From Marinilabilia salmonicolor (GTDB lineage Bacteria > Bacteroidota > Bacteroidia > Bacteroidales > Marinilabiliaceae), in NCBI RefSeq assembly GCF_003003035.1, contig NZ_PVTS01000007.1, forward strand, positions 175,445 through 239,444: DNA of 64,000 nucleotides, read 5' to 3'. Positions 6,161 to 64,000 of this stretch are shown here, in pieces (position 1 is the first letter of the stretch; every line of letters begins with the position of its first letter). A model generated the notes under the pieces. That model worked only from the letters and a program-made list of their open reading frames with translations. It was not told the origin of the DNA and ran no database searches. The position numbers were made by a program, and so were the translations under genes.

Positions 6161-6970
6161 ATGAAAGACAAAGTAATAATCATCACAGGAGCTTCTTCAG
6201 GTATAGGCCTTGCCTGTGCAAGGGATTTCGCCTCCAGAGGTGCAAAAATATCACTGGCAGCCCGAAGTGCTGACAAACTATCCAAAATTGAGGAAGAGCT
6301 TACCGCATCGGGTCATGAAGTTTTGGTAACGCCCACGGATGTTAGCAGAGAGGAAGATTGTAAGGTGCTTATTGAGCAAACAGTCAAAAGGTTTGGGAAG
6401 ATAGATGTGCTGGTCAATAATGCAGGAATCTCTATGAGGGCTCTCTTTAAAGACCTGGATCTCTCTGTACTCAGGCAACTGATGGATGTAAATTTCTGGG
6501 GAACGGTATATTGCACAAAACATGCACTTCCTCATCTTTTAGAGACCAAAGGTTCGGTAGTCGGGGTTTCTTCTATCGCTGGATTTATTGGGCTGCCCGG
6601 ACGAACAGGTTATTCGGCATCTAAATTTGCCATGCACGGATTTTTACAAACGCTGCGTACCGAAAACCTGAAAACCGGTCTTCATGTCCTTATTGCTGCC
6701 CCAGGCTTTACAGCGTCCAATGTACGTAAAGCTGCACTAACTGCCGATGGATCCAACCAGGGCGAGACACCTCGTGCAGAAGACAAAATGATGAGTGCAG
6801 AAGAGGTCGCCCGTCACCTTGCCAAAGCAATCCTGAAGAGAAAAAGAACATTGATCCTGACTTTCAAGGAAGGAAAATTGACCGTTTTTCTGAGTAAGTG
6901 GTGGCCCTCGCTGGTTGAAAAACTATCATACAGTCACATGGCCAAAGAACCTGATTCACCATTCAAATAA
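6161..6970 (+). CDS. Short-chain dehydrogenase/reductase (SDR)
   Basis: A 269-residue classical SDR. The Rossmann motif TGASSGIG is at 9-16, NNAG at 86-89, and the catalytic Ser about 138, Y151 and K155 ('YSASK'). The C-terminal 60 residues are basic and hydrophobic ('VFLSKWWPSLVEKL'), as in DHRS7-like membrane-associated reductases; the substrate is not evident. It is preceded by two hairpin leader repeats and is 5 bp from the thioesterase gene, so an operon is likely. Confidence 0.9.
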   Translation: MKDKVIIITGASSGIGLACARDFASRGAKISLAARSADKLSKIEEELTASGHEVLVTPTDVSREEDCKVLIEQTVKRFGKIDVLVNNAGISMRALFKDLDLSVLRQLMDVNFWGTVYCTKHALPHLLETKGSVVGVSSIAGFIGLPGRTGYSASKFAMHGFLQTLRTENLKTGLHVLIAAPGFTASNVRKAALTADGSNQGETPRAEDKMMSAEEVARHLAKAILKRKRTLILTFKEGKLTVFLSKWWPSLVEKLSYSHMAKEPDSPFK

Positions 6971-9395: not shown

Positions 9396-9439
9396 TATTG
9401 CTAAGGATAGAAAATTTTGATTAAATTTGTTGATACAAA

Positions 9440-9517
9440 CTGTTAGGGGTGCTCCATTGGGGGCTGAGAATAAACCCTTTCACCTGATATGTATAATAAC
9501 AGCGTAGGGAAACAGTA
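9440..9517 (+). promoter_or_regulatory. TPP riboswitch (THI element)
   Basis: Conserved blocks in order: AGGGGTGC, GGGGCTGAGAA, AACCCTTTCACCTGAT, and AATAACAGCGTAGGGAA. This matches the thiamine pyrophosphate aptamer. It stands 206 bp before thiM, with a terminator between, so thiamine pyrophosphate is expected to shut off the salvage operon by early transcription termination. Confidence 0.95.
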
Positions 9518-9556
9518 GCTCAATGACCATTGTTTTTACAATAATACACTCCATTG

Positions 9557-18688: not shown

Positions 18689-19198
18689 ATGAATTGGGAA
18701 AAAGAATTGAACATTCTGCTGGAAGAACGAAAAATATCGCAGGTTGTTGACTATTTGTTCAGTTCACCAGAGGAGATACCGCAACTTATCGGATTAACAA
18801 AGCACAGAAAGAAAAAAACTGCATGGCGTGCTGCATGGGTAATTGACCATTTGAATATGCAGAAACCCGGTGTTGTTGCTCCTTTTTACCCGGAAATAAT
18901 TCAAATTCTTAAATCAACATCCTTTGACGGGGTTCGCCGATCTTTACTAAAAGTCATGCTGGGTGCCCCGGTCGAAAAGAGAGATGACGGTGAATTACTG
19001 GATCTATGTTTCAGGTGGATTGTCTCACCTGATATCCCAATTGCTGTCAGAGTATATTCCATGCAATATGTTCACGATTTACTTCCCGAATATCCGGAAC
19101 TAAAAAATGAATTCAGACACAGTCTCCTGTTAGCACTTGATGACCAAAGTAAAGGAGTAAAAGCCAGGGCAGGAAGGATATTGTCCAGTTTGCCTTAG
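18689..19198 (+). CDS. HEAT-repeat-like protein
   Basis: 169 residues, all helical, with repeating pairs such as 'KKTAWRAAWVIDHLNM', 'GVRRSLLKVMLGAPV', 'IAVRVYSMQYVHDLLPEYPEL' and 'KGVKARAGRILSSL'. These look like HEAT/armadillo units that bind proteins. No signal peptide. It starts 3 bp after pcm and is probably co-transcribed; no function is known. Repeat A1 begins at its stop. Confidence 0.7.
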   Translation: MNWEKELNILLEERKISQVVDYLFSSPEEIPQLIGLTKHRKKKTAWRAAWVIDHLNMQKPGVVAPFYPEIIQILKSTSFDGVRRSLLKVMLGAPVEKRDDGELLDLCFRWIVSPDIPIAVRVYSMQYVHDLLPEYPELKNEFRHSLLLALDDQSKGVKARAGRILSSLP

Positions 19199-19200
19199 TT

Positions 19201-19416
19201 TCTGTCCATAAAGTACCACTTGCGTCGTTACGCTTGCCGCCCAAATACTCATTTACGATTAGGAAATTCCGTTTTTGGGGGCTTCGCAAACTTAGAAATT
19301 GGGGATTTCTGACCAGAAACAGCTCTATAAAATAAGAAAAATTTCTCAAGTTCGCTGTCTCTGTTCAGAAGGTTCCGCTAATGGCGTAACGCAGTAAACG
19401 GGACTTTATGGACAGA
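19201..19416. repeat. Family A intergenic repeat, copy A1 (composite)
   Basis: Ends are a perfect 14-bp inverted repeat, TCTGTCCATAAAGT and ACTTTATGGACAGA. Inside is a hairpin (19236-19281, GCCGCCCAAA with TTTTTGGGGGC) and then an inverted segment matching the right part of A2 and A3, so this copy looks like two A elements head to head. No coding frame. It fills most of the 327-bp gap to msrA. Confidence 0.8.
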
Positions 19417-19525
19417 TATTAAATATAATACCGGGGAGGTTTAAACAGGCTGAAAGCACGAAAAATCCTCCCCTTCTCATTATTGTTTAAAGACTTTAGG
19501 CCTTTTAAAAACGCATCATTGACGG

Positions 19526-20119
19526 TTATTTTAGTTTCTGCTCAAATTTCTCCCTGAACTTTTTAAGCTTCGGATTAATAACCACCTGACAATAAGGCTG
19601 ATTAGGATTGTTCTCAAAATAATTCTGATGATAGTTTTCGGCGACAAAGAAGTCACCGGCCGGACTTATTTCCGTAACCACAGGTTTGTTATATACTTCC
19701 TGACGCTTCAACTCCTCAATAACCTCTTCAGCTTCTTGTCTTTGTTGTTCGGAATTATAAAATATTACCGACCGGTATTGTGTCCCCACATCGGCCCCCT
19801 GTCTGTTCAATGTTGTCGGGTCATGCACAGAAAAAAATACGGAAAGTATCTCTTTGTAGGTAATTCTGGCTGAATCAAAAAAGACCCGGATCACTTCGGC
19901 GTGACCGGTAAGTCCGGAACAAACCTCCCGATAAGTGGGATTTGCAATCTTTCCGCCGCTATATCCCGATTCCACTTTAGTAACTCCTTGTAGTTCTTCA
20001 AAAACAGCTTCAATGCACCAGAAGCATCCGCCGCCTAAAATCGCAGTCTCTTCTTTACTATTTGCTTGTATCATAATACTTGTCTGGATTATCAATGTTA
20101 ATAAAAATAATTTCTTCAT
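19526..20119 (-). CDS. msrA: Peptide methionine sulfoxide reductase A, exported
   Basis: Reduces methionine-S-sulfoxide in proteins. 197 residues; catalytic motif 'GGGCFWCIEAVFEELQGV' with C32 nucleophile, plus 'GHAEVIRVFFD', 'VGTQYRSVIFY' and 'AENYHQNYF'. The first 20 residues (MKKLFLLTLIIQTSIMIQAN) look like a signal peptide, which would place repair in the periplasm. No MsrB is adjacent. Confidence 0.95.
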   Translation of the reverse strand: MKKLFLLTLIIQTSIMIQANSKEETAILGGGCFWCIEAVFEELQGVTKVESGYSGGKIANPTYREVCSGLTGHAEVIRVFFDSARITYKEILSVFFSVHDPTTLNRQGADVGTQYRSVIFYNSEQQRQEAEEVIEELKRQEVYNKPVVTEISPAGDFFVAENYHQNYFENNPNQPYCQVVINPKLKKFREKFEQKLK

Positions 20120-20179
20120 TCGTTTTCAATTTTGGATTATCACAAACCTGATGATTAAACCGTACCTCATTACTTCGTG

Positions 20180-20336
20180 TCTGTCCATAAAGTACCATTT
20201 ACTGCGTTTCGCCATCAGCGGAAATTGCTCATTTACTCAAGTAAACTCCGCATTTCCGCTGATGGCAAGCCTTGTAAACGGAACCCTCTGAACAGACACA
20301 GCGAACTTGAGAAACTTTACTTAGTTTATAGACAGA
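20180..20336. repeat. Family A intergenic repeat, copy A2
   Basis: Left end TCTGTCCATAAAGTACCA; right end CTTAGTTTATAGACAGA (12 of 14 matching the left end). Its inner hairpin (20211-20266) has 13-bp perfect arms CATCAGCGGAAAT/ATTTCCGCTGATG and an apex CATTTAC-TCA-AGTAAACTCC. The right part (GAACAGACACAGCGAACTTG) is shared with A3. Confidence 0.85.
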
Positions 20337-20348
20337 CTCTACTTAGTC

Positions 20349-20494
20349 TCTGTCCATAAACTAAGCGTTTTTCAAGTGTTTGAACTATAAAGTTCAAATT
20401 CAAGGCGTGTGAAAAATATAAACCGCAGAATACTACTGTATTTGAGGATTTAGATTTTGAGCAACAACGCAGAAGTTGGACTTTATAGACAAAC
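20349..20494. repeat. Family B intergenic repeat, copy B1
   Basis: Begins TCTGTCCATAAACTAAGCG and ends GGACTTTATAGACAAAC, so its termini resemble those of family A. Interior features are TTTGAACTATAAAGTTCAAA (small palindrome) and TTTGAGCAACAACGCAGAAG. It follows A2 after 12 bp, the same A-then-B order seen at 58704-58970. No coding frame. Confidence 0.85.
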
Positions 20495-20553
20495 ATTACT
20501 TAAACTAAAAAAGATAGCACTTGGTTCAAAGTAATAAACCAGATCAAAACCTC

Positions 20554-20561
20554 TATCTTTG
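20554..20561 (+). promoter_or_regulatory. Candidate promoter of the YgiQ gene
   Basis: TATCTTTG fits TAnnTTTG exactly and lies only 12 bp before the TTG start at 20573, so the transcript would be almost leaderless. Confidence 0.45.
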
Positions 20562-20572
20562 CAAAAAAAAGT

Positions 20573-22477
20573 TTGCAAAACAAGTTCCACATAACAAATT
20601 GGTTGCCTACAACGGCAAAAGAGGTAAAAGAACACGGATGGGATGAACTGGATGTTATCCTTTTTTCAGGCGATGCCTATGTTGACCATCCCTCATTTGG
20701 AGCTGCAGTAATCGGTCGCGTACTTTATGACCTGGGACTCAGGGTAGCCATCGTTCCACAGCCCAACTGGCGTGATGATCTCAGGGATTTCAAAAAACTG
20801 GGGATTCCACGGTTATTTTTCGGTGTTACCGCCGGAAATATGGATTCCATGGTTAATCACTACACCGCCGGCAAGCGTTTGCGATCGAATGATGCATATA
20901 CACCCGGCGGCAAATCAGGGTTTCGCCCGGATTATGCTACTGTTGTATATACCAGGATTCTTAAAGAGCTCTTTCCGGATGTTCCGGTAATTGTTGGAGG
21001 CATAGAAGCCTCTTTGAGACGATTCACCCACTATGATTATTGGAAAAACGAACTAAAACCTAACATTCTCAGCTGGAGTGGCGCAGACCTGCTGGTTTAC
21101 GGAATGGGTGAACACCCCTTGAAAGAATTGGTTCGGTTACTGCGGAAAGGAGTTCCTGTGGAAAGCCTGAACACCATTCCTCAAACTGCCATCTTGCAAG
21201 ATAAAGAGGCTCCTTTACCAAAAAATAAAAACTGGGAAGAGATCGAACTTTTCCCGCATGAAGAATGCCTGGAGGACCAAACAAAATTTGCCCAAAACTT
21301 CAGACACATAGAAGAAGAATCCAACAGGATGCATCCGGCACGACTTCATCAGATATGTGGAGATCAAAGAATTGTGGTAAATCCTGCCCTGCCTCCGTTA
21401 AAGGAAAAGGAGGTGGACTATTCATTCAGCCTTCCCTACACCAGACTACCACATCCACGCTATCATAACAAAGGTGCCATTCCGGCTTTTGACATGATAA
21501 AGGATTCTGTGAATCTTCACCGGGGATGTTTTGGGGGATGTAGCTTTTGTACCATATCAGCCCATCAGGGCAAGTTTATAAGTTCAAGATCGGAAGAGTC
21601 AATTCTCCGGGAGATTCAACAAGTTGCAGACAGTGAAGATTTTAAAGGAAGCATTTCTGATTTGGGCGGCCCCAGCGCAAATATGTATAAAATGCAGGGT
21701 AAAGGCCTGAGTATTTGCGAAAAATGCAAAAGACCTTCCTGTATCTTCCCATCAGTCTGCAAAAACCTGAATACATCGCACCAACCACTCACCGAAATAT
21801 ACCGAAAAGCAGATCAAATTTCCGGAATCAGAAAAACTTTCATTGGAAGCGGAGTACGTTACGATATGCTGCTCAATGAAAATGCGCCTGAAGAAGAAAG
21901 AAAAACGCATCAGGAGTATCTGAAAGAGCTGTTGATAAAACATGTTTCCGGCCGTTTAAAGGTAGCTCCGGAACATACATCCGACAAGGTATTGAAGACT
22001 ATGCGCAAACCATCATTTGGCCTTTTCAAACGTTTTACGCATAAGTTTCAAAAGATCAATGAGGAAGCCGGCCTTAACCAGCAAATTATTCCATACTTCA
22101 TTTCCAGTCATCCCGCCTGTGAAGAAAGGGATATGGCACTTCTTGCAGCAGAGACCAAATCGCTGAATTTTAACCTGGAACAAGTTCAGGATTTCACCCC
22201 TACTCCAATGACACTGGCCACTGTAATGTATTACACCGGATTGGATCCCTATACCATGAAAAAAGTTTATGTGGCCCGTGACAAGGAAGAAAAAACAGGC
22301 CAAAGACAATATTTCTTCTGGTATAAACCACAAATGCGTCAACAACTGGAACGAAAAATCAGAAACTCCGGATGGTTTGATGTTTTGAAAGTACTGTTTC
22401 CCGATAAACAACCGGGTAACACCACAACCAGAAAACAAAATTATTCAAAAAAGAAAAGAATTTCCCGCAAGAGGTAA
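20573..22477 (+). CDS. YgiQ-family radical SAM protein
   Basis: 634 residues. N-terminal YgiQ domain 'DVILFSGDAYVDHPSFGAA', then the radical SAM cluster motif C-X3-C-X2-C in 'HRGCFGGCSFCTISAHQG', and an additional cysteine set 'ICEKCKRPSCIFPSVC' typical of the family. The C-terminal tail is very basic ('TTTRKQNYSKKKRISRKR'). The reaction is unknown. The start is TTG; no in-frame ATG lies upstream, and the first internal ATG would remove the conserved N-terminus. It has its own promoter box between repeat B1 and the start. Confidence 0.9.
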   Translation: MQNKFHITNWLPTTAKEVKEHGWDELDVILFSGDAYVDHPSFGAAVIGRVLYDLGLRVAIVPQPNWRDDLRDFKKLGIPRLFFGVTAGNMDSMVNHYTAGKRLRSNDAYTPGGKSGFRPDYATVVYTRILKELFPDVPVIVGGIEASLRRFTHYDYWKNELKPNILSWSGADLLVYGMGEHPLKELVRLLRKGVPVESLNTIPQTAILQDKEAPLPKNKNWEEIELFPHEECLEDQTKFAQNFRHIEEESNRMHPARLHQICGDQRIVVNPALPPLKEKEVDYSFSLPYTRLPHPRYHNKGAIPAFDMIKDSVNLHRGCFGGCSFCTISAHQGKFISSRSEESILREIQQVADSEDFKGSISDLGGPSANMYKMQGKGLSICEKCKRPSCIFPSVCKNLNTSHQPLTEIYRKADQISGIRKTFIGSGVRYDMLLNENAPEEERKTHQEYLKELLIKHVSGRLKVAPEHTSDKVLKTMRKPSFGLFKRFTHKFQKINEEAGLNQQIIPYFISSHPACEERDMALLAAETKSLNFNLEQVQDFTPTPMTLATVMYYTGLDPYTMKKVYVARDKEEKTGQRQYFFWYKPQMRQQLERKIRNSGWFDVLKVLFPDKQPGNTTTRKQNYSKKKRISRKR

Positions 22478-22534
22478 AGCCCTTAAAATAAGTATGTTTT
22501 ATAGTTGCGCATGGATGTTTGGAGATTGCTTCGG

Positions 22535-22696
22535 GCGCTGCCCTTCCAATGACGGATTTTTGTAATAAACAAGAAATCAGCAAAATAATAGTTGGCCCCC
22601 TTTCGGGGACCCGTTCCCATTTGTTCAGCTTACCCCGGGTCGTTAACCCGGGGTAAGTCAAATTTGCCCCTTCGGGGACGGGCCAGTTCTGTCATT
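22535..22696. repeat. Tandem intergenic repeat D1
   Basis: A GC-rich unit containing GGCCCCCTTTCGGGGACC and the palindrome ACCCCGGGTCGTTAACCCGG, ending AAATTTGCCCCTTCGGGGAC. The same order recurs about 190 bp later (D2). The hairpins are strong, but no poly-T follows them. Confidence 0.7.
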
Positions 22697-22724
22697 AACG
22701 CATTATGCCACAATTATTTGAGGT

Positions 22725-22890
22725 GATCACTCGCAATGGCGGATTTTCACAACAAGCAGAAAGTCAGGATTGTAATTATTGGCCCCCATTCGGGAACCTG
22801 ACCCCGCTTGTTCAGTCTTACCCCGGGTTTTCGACCCGGGGTTATTCAAATTTGCCCCTTTCAGGGACCTGCCAGGTCTGTCGTAACCCC
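22725..22890. repeat. Tandem intergenic repeat D2
   Basis: Second, diverged copy of D1: TTGGCCCCCATTCGGGAACC, TTACCCCGGGTTTTCGACCC, AAATTTGCCCCTTTCAGGGA. Differences in the stems are partly matched on both sides. Translated frames across D1 and D2 have no protein character. Confidence 0.7.
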
Positions 22891-22904
22891 CTTTTTCCCT
22901 CCGC

Positions 22905-23073
22905 ACTAGTAGTGCGTTCGAGAAATAGTATTTCAAATATTTTGCTTTCATTTTTTCTATCTGCAAGGCCAAATTTTGAAGCATAGCCATAGCTACGTTG
23001 AAAAATTTTAACGATGCAGAATGGGAAAAGGGATGTAAAATATGAGATAGTATTTTGTGATCGCACTACTAGT
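22905..23073. mobile_element. MITE-like element C
   Basis: 169 bp bounded by perfect 12-bp inverted repeats ACTAGTAGTGCG and CGCACTACTAGT; pairing continues imperfectly inward (GAAATAGTATTTCAAATATT with AAAATATGAGATAGTATTTT). No coding frame. Its right end abuts a fragment of family B, which suggests insertion into or next to a B copy. Called MITE-like from structure only. Confidence 0.6.
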
Positions 23074-23109
23074 TCAAACACGTGAAAAACGCTTAGTTTA
23101 TAGACAGAC
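23073..23109 (-). repeat. Family B 5'-end fragment, copy B4 (inverted)
   Basis: Reverse complement of the first 37 bp of family B (AACGCTTAGTTTATAGACAG with GTTCAAACACGTG before it). The remainder of B is absent; element C begins where the B sequence stops. Confidence 0.65.
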
Positions 23110-23173
23110 TTGAAGTAGTGTCTGGACAGAAACTAAGTAGATGAATCTCTGACAATGGCATGGGCTTTTTTAC

Positions 23174-23181
23174 TATATTTG
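23174..23181 (+). promoter_or_regulatory. Candidate promoter of the DUF4197 gene
   Basis: TATATTTG fits TAnnTTTG, 28 bp before the ATG at 23210. Confidence 0.4.
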
Positions 23182-23209
23182 TTAAAACAATTATAAAATC
23201 CATTTTATT

Positions 23210-23947
23210 ATGAAACGAATTCTACTCCCCATATTCTTAGTTGTATTCACAGGTTGTGCAGAACTGGCTCAAATTGCCAAAGAAATAGATACTAATCGGC
23301 CACTTACACAAACTGAGGTAATCAGCGGACTAAAGCAAGCATTGACTATTGGCGCAGATTCCGCTGCATCAGAACTGTCTGCAACCAACGGTTATTATCT
23401 GGATCAACTGGTAAAAATCACATTGCCCCCTGAAGCATCAGTTGTGACAGAAAACATTTCCAAACTTCCCGGTGGCGAAAAACTGGTGGAAGATGTAATT
23501 CTGCGCATTAACCGTTCTGCGGAAGATGCTGCCAAAGAAGCAGCACCGGTTTTTGCCCGGGCAGTTACCGGCATGACTATCCAGGATGGATTTAACATTC
23601 TTAGAGGAGAAAAAGATGCTGCTACTCAATATCTCAAATCCCAGACCTACCGGGAACTATACAATCTGTATCAACCAAAAATAAAAAAGAGTCTGGACAA
23701 AGAAATTGTGGGCAACCTCTCCACCAACGAGTCATGGGATACACTTACCGGTCAATGGAACAGAGTAGCTGGTTCAATTGTGGGAAAAATGGCCAATCTT
23801 GAAACTGTAGATACTGATTTGGATAAATATCTGACCGAAAAAGCATTGGACGGCCTGTTTTTGAAGCTGGCTTTGGAGGAAGAAAAAATCAGGGAAGACC
23901 CAAAGGCCAGGGTAACGGCCCTGCTTAAAAGAGTATTTGGCCAGTAA
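23210..23947 (+). CDS. DUF4197 lipoprotein
   Basis: 245 residues. Lipobox 'VVFTGC' with C16 follows a short basic and hydrophobic leader. The body has the DUF4197 order: 'LTQTEVISGLKQALTIGAD', 'ITLPPEA', 'AEDAAKEAAPVFARAVTGMT', 'DGFNILRGEKDAATQYLKSQT'. The fold is helical and the function unknown. It stands alone between repeat clusters, with its own promoter box. Confidence 0.88.
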   Translation: MKRILLPIFLVVFTGCAELAQIAKEIDTNRPLTQTEVISGLKQALTIGADSAASELSATNGYYLDQLVKITLPPEASVVTENISKLPGGEKLVEDVILRINRSAEDAAKEAAPVFARAVTGMTIQDGFNILRGEKDAATQYLKSQTYRELYNLYQPKIKKSLDKEIVGNLSTNESWDTLTGQWNRVAGSIVGKMANLETVDTDLDKYLTEKALDGLFLKLALEEEKIREDPKARVTALLKRVFGQ

Positions 23948-23960
23948 CCTTTAAATAGTG

Positions 23961-24116
23961 TCTGCCCATAAAGTACCATTTGCGTCGTTACCCTTGCCGC
24001 CAAAATACTCATTCACCCAAGTAAACCCCGTTTTTGGCGGCTTCCCAAGCCTAGCAACTGGCACTTTCTGAACAGACACAGCGAACTTGAGAAACTTTAC
24101 TTAGTTTATAGACGGG
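23961..24116. repeat. Family A intergenic repeat, copy A3
   Basis: TCTGCCCATAAAGTACCA at the left and CTTAGTTTATAGACGGG at the right. The inner hairpin 23996-24041 pairs GCCGCCAAAA with TTTTTGGCGGC around CATTCAC-CCA-AGTAAACCCC. The right part is nearly identical to A2. The last 16 bp overlap the 3' end of the radical SAM gene at 24101. Confidence 0.85.
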
Positions 24117-25054
24117 CTATATAATCGCCCTTGCCAGGTATTTTGGGCCAGCATTCGTTTGCGTACCATCTCTACGATCTGAAAATTTTTCAGACCCCAG
24201 CGGGGGGCCAGCAGCAATTCATAGGGTGCCTGACTGGCCAATCGTTCCACCACAATGGAGGGATTCAAACGTTCAAGAAAATCAATAACTATTTCAATGT
24301 ATTCATCCGGATCAAGGACTCTGTACTGATCCGGATCTGCTTGATATTTTCGTCCCAAATCAGATCCTTTAACATACTGAAGCTGATGAAGTTTCAGGTA
24401 ATTCAGTGGGAGCTCAGATAAAATATCCGCATGCGATAACATCACTTCATTGGATTCTCCGGGGAGTCCCATTATTAAATGGCCGCCCACAGGTAATCCC
24501 ACTTTATTCAGCTTTAGAATGGCCTCGCGGGTCTCCTCAAAGGTATGCCCCCTGTTTACATGCTTCAGGGTTTCTTCGTTAGTCGATTCAATACCCAGTT
24601 CCACCACCACATAATAATCCTTCTGCAATTGGGCAAAGTACTCAATCAACTCATCAGGAAGACAATCGGGGCGGGTGCCAACAACCAGTCCGACAATCCC
24701 CGGATGGTTTAATGCTTCTTCATACATCTGTTTCAGTTGATCCAAAGGCCCGTAAGTATTGGTATAGGCCTGAAAATAGGCAAGGTACAATTGGTCGGGG
24801 TATCTGGCACGGAAAAAGGACATCCCGGTTTCCAGCTGGTTGGCAATACTCATTCCCGGTTCACAATAATCCGGATTAAATGTTTTATTGTTACAGAATG
24901 TACATCCACCTGTGCCTCTGCTACCATCCCGGTTGGGGCAGGTAAATCCTACATTCAGAGAAAGTTTCTGAACGCGGTTGTTAAATTTGTTACGCAGAAA
25001 GTTACTGTAATCGTTGAAAGGATTATGGTGGCCCCAGGGGTATTTATAAGACAT
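24101..25054 (-). CDS. TIGR01212-family radical SAM protein (YhcC-like)
   Basis: 317 residues. The atypical cluster motif is 'VGFTCPNRDGSRGTGGCTFC' (C39, C51, C54), characteristic of this family, followed by 'YLAYFQAYTNTYGPLDQLK' and 'GHLIMGLPGES'. Role unknown; Elp3-related. The final codons (SPSIN and the TAA) are read from the end of repeat A3, so repeat insertion may have reshaped the C-terminus. Confidence 0.92.
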   Translation of the reverse strand: MSYKYPWGHHNPFNDYSNFLRNKFNNRVQKLSLNVGFTCPNRDGSRGTGGCTFCNNKTFNPDYCEPGMSIANQLETGMSFFRARYPDQLYLAYFQAYTNTYGPLDQLKQMYEEALNHPGIVGLVVGTRPDCLPDELIEYFAQLQKDYYVVVELGIESTNEETLKHVNRGHTFEETREAILKLNKVGLPVGGHLIMGLPGESNEVMLSHADILSELPLNYLKLHQLQYVKGSDLGRKYQADPDQYRVLDPDEYIEIVIDFLERLNPSIVVERLASQAPYELLLAPRWGLKNFQIVEMVRKRMLAQNTWQGRLYSPSIN

Positions 25055-55670: not shown

Positions 55671-55804
55671 ACCTTTCTTCGTACCTGTATCGGGCCTTCA
55701 TTGACTGTTGTTCGACTGTTGTTCGGCTGTTCTCCGACTCCTATAGGATCGGAGAACAGTAGAACAAAGGCCGAACAAGCCCCGAAGAAGGCACGAAGAA
55801 AGGT
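55671..55804. repeat. Long inverted repeat downstream of GH43
   Basis: Outer arms ACCTTTCTTCGT/ACGAAGAAAGGT (12 bp perfect) and inner arms CTGTTCTCCGA/TCGGAGAACAG (11 bp perfect) with partly pairing sequence between. The left arm contains GACTGTTGTTC twice. It could terminate the GH43 transcript in either direction. The 450 bp beyond it, up to 56250, hold nothing I can identify. Confidence 0.75.
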
Positions 55805-58616: not shown

Positions 58617-58703
58617 TGAATCTTTCTTTTCGGTTTCTTACTCTGTATATTGGTTAACAAAACGTTTAACCGGTTTATTTGTTTTAAAGTAATTAAATAG
58701 TTA

Positions 58704-58813
58704 CTGTCCATAAAGTACCACTTGCATCCCCGAAGGATCGGGGCAGGCTTAGCAATTGGCACTTTCTGACCAGAAACAGCTCTAAAATCAGAATATGCTT
58801 AGTTTATGGACAG
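58704..58813. repeat. Family A intergenic repeat, copy A4 (short)
   Basis: CTGTCCATAAAGTACCACTT at the left and CTTAGTTTATGGACAG at the right. The variable hairpin of A1-A3 is replaced by CCCCGA-AGGA-TCGGGG (58728-58743), flanked by the conserved TTGC and GCAATTGGCAC. Confidence 0.85.
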
Positions 58814-58825
58814 GCACTAAATAGT

Positions 58826-58970
58826 CTCTGTCCATATACTAAGCGTTTTTAATGTGTTTGAACTAGAAAGTTCAAATTCAAGGCGTGTGAATAATCTAAA
58901 TCGCAGAATACCAATGTGTTTAAGGGTTTAGGCTTTGAGCCACAACGCAGACGTTGGACTTTATAGACAA
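58826..58970. repeat. Family B intergenic repeat, copy B2
   Basis: TCTGTCCATATACTAAGCG to GGACTTTATAGACAA, with TTTGAACTAGAAAGTTCAAA inside. It follows A4 after 12 bp, repeating the A2-B1 order. Confidence 0.85.
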
Positions 58971-59096
58971 CCACAAATAGGAACTTTTAACGGACAATTT
59001 ATTACCACCAAAAGCAACCTTTTTTAAATTACAAGTCTTACATTCGTAAACAGAACCCTGTTTGCATAAACCATTATTTTTAAAAAACTCAAAAAT

Positions 59097-63941: not shown

Positions 63942-63948
63942 CTATAAT

Positions 63949-64000
63949 GAGGATTTATACTTTGAGCAACAACACAGAAGTCGGACTTTATAGACAAACA
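63949..64000. repeat. Family B 3'-end fragment, copy B3
   Basis: GAGGATTTATACTTTGAGCA to GACTTTATAGACAAACA matches the right third of B1 and B2. The 5' part is absent; the window ends here. Confidence 0.7.

Follow-up and report, generated by a model that had tools for sequence, protein, structure and literature searches.

How can the palindrome inside a repeat differ from copy to copy and yet stay self-complementary? The question arises in a 64,000-nucleotide stretch of DNA from Marinilabilia salmonicolor (contig NZ_PVTS01000007.1; hereafter the window), where four copies of a short repeat, A1 to A4 of what we call family A, share a constant outer frame around different inner hairpins. The original prediction, made from these letters, had proposed a non-autonomous element mobilized in trans or a modular structured RNA, with the changing palindrome arising by exchange of a structured module or under strong selection for folding. 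We find that family A is a miniature inverted-repeat transposable element (MITE), and consider it likely that it is moved in trans by a putative transposase and that its inner hairpins have been swapped whole between copies by recombination.

Ends, target sites and spread of family A

The left end, CTGTCCATAAAGTACCA, occurs exactly at positions 19202, 20181 and 58704 of the window and with one mismatch at 23962, as predicted for the four copies, while shuffled windows contained a mean of 0.20 matches with up to three mismatches allowed. The internal arms differ as had been noticed: those of A2 are CATCAGCGGAAAT/ATTTCCGCTGATG, A1 and A3 have arms of the GCCGCC type, and A4 has CCCCGAAGGATCGGGG alone. 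Elements with the A core and elements with a second core type, B, share terminal inverted repeats of the form GTNNCTGTCYATAAA. We examined the flanks of 178 elements of both types, whose ends were paired by a script, in 864 kb of the host genome (4.79 Mb; Bacteroidota, Marinilabiliaceae) and 98 named loci. The outer six bases on the two sides agree at five or more positions in 122 of these elements, and fully in 86, compared with a mean of 68 and a maximum of 84 matches when the right flanks were permuted, and 0 to 6 in eight shifted registers. Agreement per column is 0.75–0.81 within the 6 bp and 0.25–0.47 outside them, and the consensus of the duplicated target is TANNTA. In the host genome alone the duplication is seen in 27 of 43 elements.

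Some adjoining elements use one hexamer in common. A2 (20177..20339, plus strand, 163 bp) has TACTTC on its left (20171..20176) and TACTTA on its right (20340–20345), and the latter, with a further TACTTA at 20497–20502, flanks the B-type element B1 (20346..20496, plus strand, 151 bp). A4 (58700..58817, plus strand, 118 bp) is bounded on both sides by TAAATA (58694–58699 and 58818–58823), and the second of these is shared with the adjoining B-type element B2 (58824..58974, plus strand), whose right flank, AAATAG, is shifted one base from register. In both cases a B element with the same kind of ends comes immediately after the A element, as if the second element had entered the target copy of the first. 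The pair at C1:207983/208186 of the host genome shows TAAATA three times; the pair at C2:303867/304059 is an exception to the pattern. The six whole A and B copies in the window span 118–222 bp and contain no transposase gene, and the end of a further B-type copy (63948..64000, plus strand) is cut by the window edge.

Further copies, for which a wider search had been suggested, are abundant. Allowing up to two mismatches, the 16-base left end matches the host genome 197 (80 + 117) times, compared with seven (5 + 2) for a reversed control, and we put family A at roughly 190 copies there. With at most one mismatch there are 144 matches in the host genome and 378 in Anaerophaga thermohalophila Valhall (G016). 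Across 61 genomes examined at this threshold, 8–378 matches each were found in the host genome, in Marinilabilia rubra WTE16 (G001), M. salmonicolor JCM 21150 (G004), two other Marinilabilia (G002 and G003), G016 and A. thermohalophila DSM 12881 (G031); five others have a single match each and 49 have none, with 0–2 matches per genome and strand for a control sequence. A scan of named genomes gave at least 98 stretches, and among the matches listed only three fall outside Marinilabilia and Anaerophaga, all of them metagenome-assembled records (two from Salinivirgaceae and one from Lentisphaerae). The plasmid and phage collections searched held no match to family A. In viral contigs, six stretches match the end exactly, but no partner end lies in register with any of them, and these matches were read as chance.

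Empty sites and target duplications had been named as a check on mobility, and both were found. In four Marinilabilia relatives (G001–G004; loci L278–L281) the A3 site is empty, and an inverted A element lies near the equivalent site in G031 (L276). Both elements of the A4+B2 site are absent from G002 (L299) and G004 (L292), while in G001, G003 and G016 just one side of it aligns. For A2+B1, the G003 sequence (L273) shows one TACTTA without any element, G004 (L290) has one inverted A element with the M1 hairpin described below at the same TACTTA, and G001 and G002 are too diverged for comparison. Conversely, M. salmonicolor locus L240 carries two elements absent from the host genome, near 2274 and 4059, the latter within a larger insert. 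In the host genome itself, an A element interrupts a Y1_Tnp gene (L143, G000:C6:207282-207530) with a clean TACTTA on both sides.

Family A is thus short, high in copy number, without a transposase gene, bounded by terminal inverted repeats and a target duplication, and variably present between related genomes. Its assignment as a MITE follows from these ends, duplications, size, copy number and polymorphism, not from a named parent. The inverted ends, the 6-bp duplications in a single register, the orthologous sites without elements and the roughly 190 left ends support the proposal of a non-autonomous element mobilized in trans, and point to a putative transposase that makes a 6-bp duplication at TANNTA.

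Eight transposase families were searched for such a helper, in fetched loci from four to seven genomes each, and no gene was found between family A ends: 18 loci of PF01609, one of PF12762 and one of PF13586 (five genomes each), 30 loci of the 35 listed PF01797 matches (seven genomes), six of PF00665 (four genomes), and three of PF05598 and one of PF01610 (seven genomes each) had no ends on both sides, and PF13358 had no match in seven genomes. Lone end-like matches occur at L100, L111, L134/L142 and L138, never on both sides of a gene. Neither convergent end pairs 0.3–6 kb apart nor open reading frames (ORFs) behind unpaired ends, sought in 864 kb of the host genome, 80 named loci and small host contigs, revealed an autonomous partner. 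The terminal inverted repeat at L098, CACTAGTGTCTATTAA, was considered as a parent end and rejected, its likeness to family A ends being superficial only. The helper may have been lost, may lie in unread contigs or may belong to another family.

A different mover, the RAYT (Y1_Tnp) proteins that mobilize REP-like palindromes, is suggested by ten Y1_Tnp matches in the host genome, by the palindromic, intergenic and high-copy character of family A, and by the single end-like matches near Y1_Tnp at L134/L142 and L138 in G016. However, none of 30 Y1_Tnp loci, which cover seven of the ten host matches, is flanked by elements on both sides, and at L143 the Y1_Tnp gene is itself interrupted by a copy. 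Family A also has sharp 6-bp target duplications, of a kind that Y1 transposition is not known to produce. We regard this origin as extremely improbable.

Hairpin modules and their probable exchange

The left end of the element has a second inverted partner within it, CTGKTCAGAAAGTGCC, and the first ~117 bases therefore form a single extended hairpin; the tail beyond it, ~40 bases in length, carries the true right end. Within the hairpin, slot S2, between GTTACG and CAAGCC, holds the lower stems, of types M1 (GCCGCC), M2 (CATTAGCGG and variants), M3 (GTCCG) or M4 (GCCCG), and is empty at M. rubra locus L168. The apex slot, bounded by CTCA and CTSCG, is filled by TTTAC-N-GTAAA, by X2 (a hairpin of 60 bases) or by TCCCGAAGGATCGGGA, or, in B, by AATAC-N-GTATT, and additional slots are occupied by modules X3, Y and Z.

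To the 187 extracted rows we applied a length of 72–80 and the usual apex, which kept 106 and gave 100 unique hairpins. In these, 94.4% of ten stem positions are paired, compared with 75.7% (maximum 81.3%) when right arms were shuffled between copies and 36–58% in shifted registers; the arms therefore belong together. The suggested covariation between arms holds to the extent that pairing exceeds these shuffles, but the compensated states come down to a few shared types or lineages. Within hairpin types (90 copies in three groups, with four groups of one to five copies, including M2, dropped as small), we counted 236 one-sided cells against 27 compensated ones and two other double changes, relatedness between copies being included in these counts. 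The one-sided cells comprise 114 transversions and 80 and 42 of two kinds of wobble. Since one-sided changes dominate, individual copies drift, and this is evidence against strong stem selection once a copy has inserted.

An internal loop interrupts this stem, with CTCA in 97 and the opposite CTSC in 91 of the 100 hairpins, and only 2 of 400 potential pairs across it are Watson-Crick. The loop is about as conserved as the neighboring A-T pairs (97–100 of 100) and more so than the outer stem pairs, where the commonest pair is found in 64–83 of 100. Because the unpaired loop is kept, the simplest idea is that a protein may read the loop or the hairpin. The loop might even be the point at which a hairpin-specific enzyme cuts or docks to remove and replace the apex of a folded single strand, in which case any palindrome bounded by the loop could be swapped in, whichever way it points and whether from its own or another element family; such hairpin-cassette exchange seems to us unlikely. 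Integron attC sites, whose conserved R and L boxes are recognized by an IntI integrase, show a general likeness, with variable arms and conserved unpaired bases.

Quasipalindrome correction, in which template switching during replication rewrites one arm from its partner, would also give matched arms without selection, and copies would exchange nothing. However, the CTCA/CTSC loop, which such correction should repair, is still unpaired, many one-arm changes persist, and the process cannot shift X2 between A and B frames as described below. Template switching is therefore a highly unlikely source of the arms.

Reassortment of whole blocks is seen when the copies are classified. Of the 187 rows, 55 were unclassifiable and one duplicated another; among the 131 that could be classified, 27 have no assigned tail type. 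Four-gamete quartets number 7 of 168 for hairpin by tail, 3 of 18 for left tag by hairpin and 7 of 84 for left tag by tail, and the M1 hairpin is found with all eight tail types. The tail classes use a similarity cut-off of 0.75, and because they hang on it single entries, such as M1/R2 and M1/R7, carry weight. The window holds one of these: A2 has hairpin M2 (CATCAGCGG/CCGCTGATG) with tail R2, and A3 (23958..24119, plus strand, 162 bp, flanks TAAATA/TATAAT) has hairpin M1 with tail R2, the sole such combination among the classified copies. A3 is itself a mosaic, because its tail is of the type of A2 and the start of the A1 tail, AGCTCTA, resembles the other type, R1 (judged by eye). A4 also has tail R1, but its main (S2) hairpin is gone and only the CCCCGAAGGATCGGGG module, X3, is present. 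The call of A1 (19198..19419, plus strand, 222 bp) as a family A copy stands for its left part, an M1-type hairpin, and not for its right half, which begins near 19324 and consists of the end of a second copy, A2-like and inverted; 19324–19377 in A1 pairs with 20279–20332 in A2 as inverted repeat I3. The flanks of this mosaic, GCCTTA/TAAATA, are mismatched and form no duplication.

The signs of exchange also span the two core types. In the chimera at L045:1547 of M. salmonicolor, the A left arm is followed by X2, by ~29 bases that show two differences from the B flank, and by the A frame again, so that its junction lies in a shared module. X2 occurs in A copies in one orientation at C2:147045, L045 and L173, and in the opposite orientation at L198 and, by eye, at C1:330912. 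The insertion slots are fixed, X2 is present in both the A and the B frame and in either orientation, and X3 occupies two slots, all of which would be expected if the modules were independent mobile units that enter the loops of other palindromes. However, a scan of 1.56 Mb for X2, X3, Y and Z gave 30 matches, of which 29 fall within elements, compared with 13.9% of random C1 positions, and the single outside match is a 14-mer with one mismatch, judged to be chance. The X2 copy at C2:147089 may also have brought a few bases of B flank with it; this argument is weak because some M4 copies carry nearly the same bases. Independent mobility of the modules thus appears unlikely.

Block exchange is the best reading of the changing palindrome, and the fixed slots, the reassortment and the A/B chimera support the exchange of a structured module that had been put forward. 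A transposase acting on the ends would insert the element at TANNTA, and crossovers or conversion tracts in the common frame, or within shared modules, would carry both hairpin arms together, since the frame that flanks them is common to the copies. Joint transfer of the arms would let self-complementarity outlast changes of sequence without base-by-base selection, and single copies would drift after exchange, with a protein perhaps reading the kept CTCA/CTSC loop or the hairpin.

Several observations weigh against this explanation. No clear duplication is seen in 56 of the 178 elements, and target preference alone accounts for 68 of the 122 matches. No autonomous partner was found around the fetched transposase hits or in a search that read ~18% of the host genome. 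The quartets can come from misclassification or parallel changes, the 27 compensated cells within types leave room for constraint at the level of the stem, and the M2 group is too small to score. Finally, block exchange does not account for the first hairpin modules. With hundreds of copies in two genera and empty sites, the family is a natural data set on how hairpins change and yet stay self-complementary. Whole-block exchange can explain most of the change here, and compensatory change in repeats should accordingly be taken with caution, as it is not proof of RNA function.

A site shared with another locus illustrates hairpin loss. TAATTA is common to C1 323475 and to M. salmonicolor L240 5614, where a long A element includes the Y module; the C1 copy has no hairpin, apparently through deletion between CAGAAA repeats.

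RNA folding and strand asymmetry

If the repeats were transcribed as a modular structured RNA, one strand would have to fold and the arms would change by compensation only. The predicted RNA folds are strong and exceed chance in both copies examined: for A2, −56.9 kcal/mol (z = −7.4) on the plus strand and −71.8 kcal/mol (z = −9.4) on the minus strand, and for A3 z = −3.8 on the plus strand; A2 folded as DNA gives z = −5.5. In 87 of 90 copies the minus strand folds more stably, and wobble cells favor it by 80 to 42, or by 54 to 23 for pairs common to both folds. The conserved CTCA loop would also fit an RNA. However, when distinct wobble changes are counted the excess vanishes (22 versus 18, p = 0.64; per genome 28 versus 18, p = 0.18; neither significant), and strand-specific selection on an RNA was rejected. 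The predominance of one-sided over compensated cells likewise speaks against the strong selection for RNA folding that had been suggested.

All 90 scored copies lie outside ORFs of at least 100 residues, in a test that is blind to genes interrupted by a copy, such as L143. Their orientation relative to neighboring genes is mixed, with no clear bias (++ 34, −− 22, −+ 20, +− 14). At the gathering score, a search of the whole window against Rfam left family A unmatched and returned only a thiamine pyrophosphate (TPP) riboswitch elsewhere, and at E ≤ 1 positions 19190–20510 gave two weak matches far below that score. The proposed RNA role is therefore very improbable.

Known elements and other repeats

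MITEs are a known kind of element, and no description of this family and its swappable hairpins was found in the open-licence literature searched. Bacterial MITEs such as Correia elements (reviewed in PMC10969869) resemble family A in being short, without a transposase gene and mostly intergenic, with terminal inverted repeats, a target duplication and strong predicted folds. Family A differs from them in ends that match no insertion sequence found here, in the 6-bp TANNTA and in nested slots with exchangeable contents. The BOX, RUP and SPRITE repeats of Streptococcus (PMC3049150) are likewise composites of modules in variable combination, but BOX varies chiefly in the number of tandem boxB units, whereas family A swaps whole hairpins in fixed slots. 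BrickBuilt of Porphyromonas gingivalis is also a Bacteroidota MITE with a special inner part, which is by the title of its report a minisatellite (PMC4596501) and not a set of exchanged hairpins. REP, BIME and REPIN sequences (PMC3116915, PMC3733652) share with family A their high copy number and intergenic palindromes; unlike them, family A has a target duplication and longer terminal repeats, with no Y1 transposase partner seen.

Other repeats lie close to these elements. A different palindrome of 169 bp at 22905–23073 (ACTAGTAGTGCG...CGCACTACTAGT) adjoins a B-type end remnant at 23074–23111, and similar sequence comes after A elements in L013 and L027. At 23112–23139, GAAGTA-GTGTCTGGACAGAAAC-TAAGTA joins two element ends without any sequence in between, resembling a near-complete internal deletion. 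At L187 of A. thermohalophila Valhall (6356–6810) an insert of ~300 bp with TTAGATTTTTAGAT-like internal repeats divides the left end of an A element. Another dispersed repeat, CATCCGTATAAAATTA...GGTCGGATGGAACTCGCATG, is found at C1 near 330700 and 244773, at C2 near 332450 and at L197 near 5650, with an A element inside the C2 copy (C2:332454).

Within the window, a GC-rich palindrome (CTTACCCCGGGT...ACCCGGGGTAAG with GGCCCC...GGGGACC) occurs twice, 188 bp apart, at 22560–22870, and a similar stretch lies in C2 near 266200. An inverted repeat at 55671–55804 has 55-base arms that are 75% complementary, and no sequence was seen that it has in common with family A. The TPP riboswitch (RF00059) lies at 9435–9527, with a score of 67 bits.

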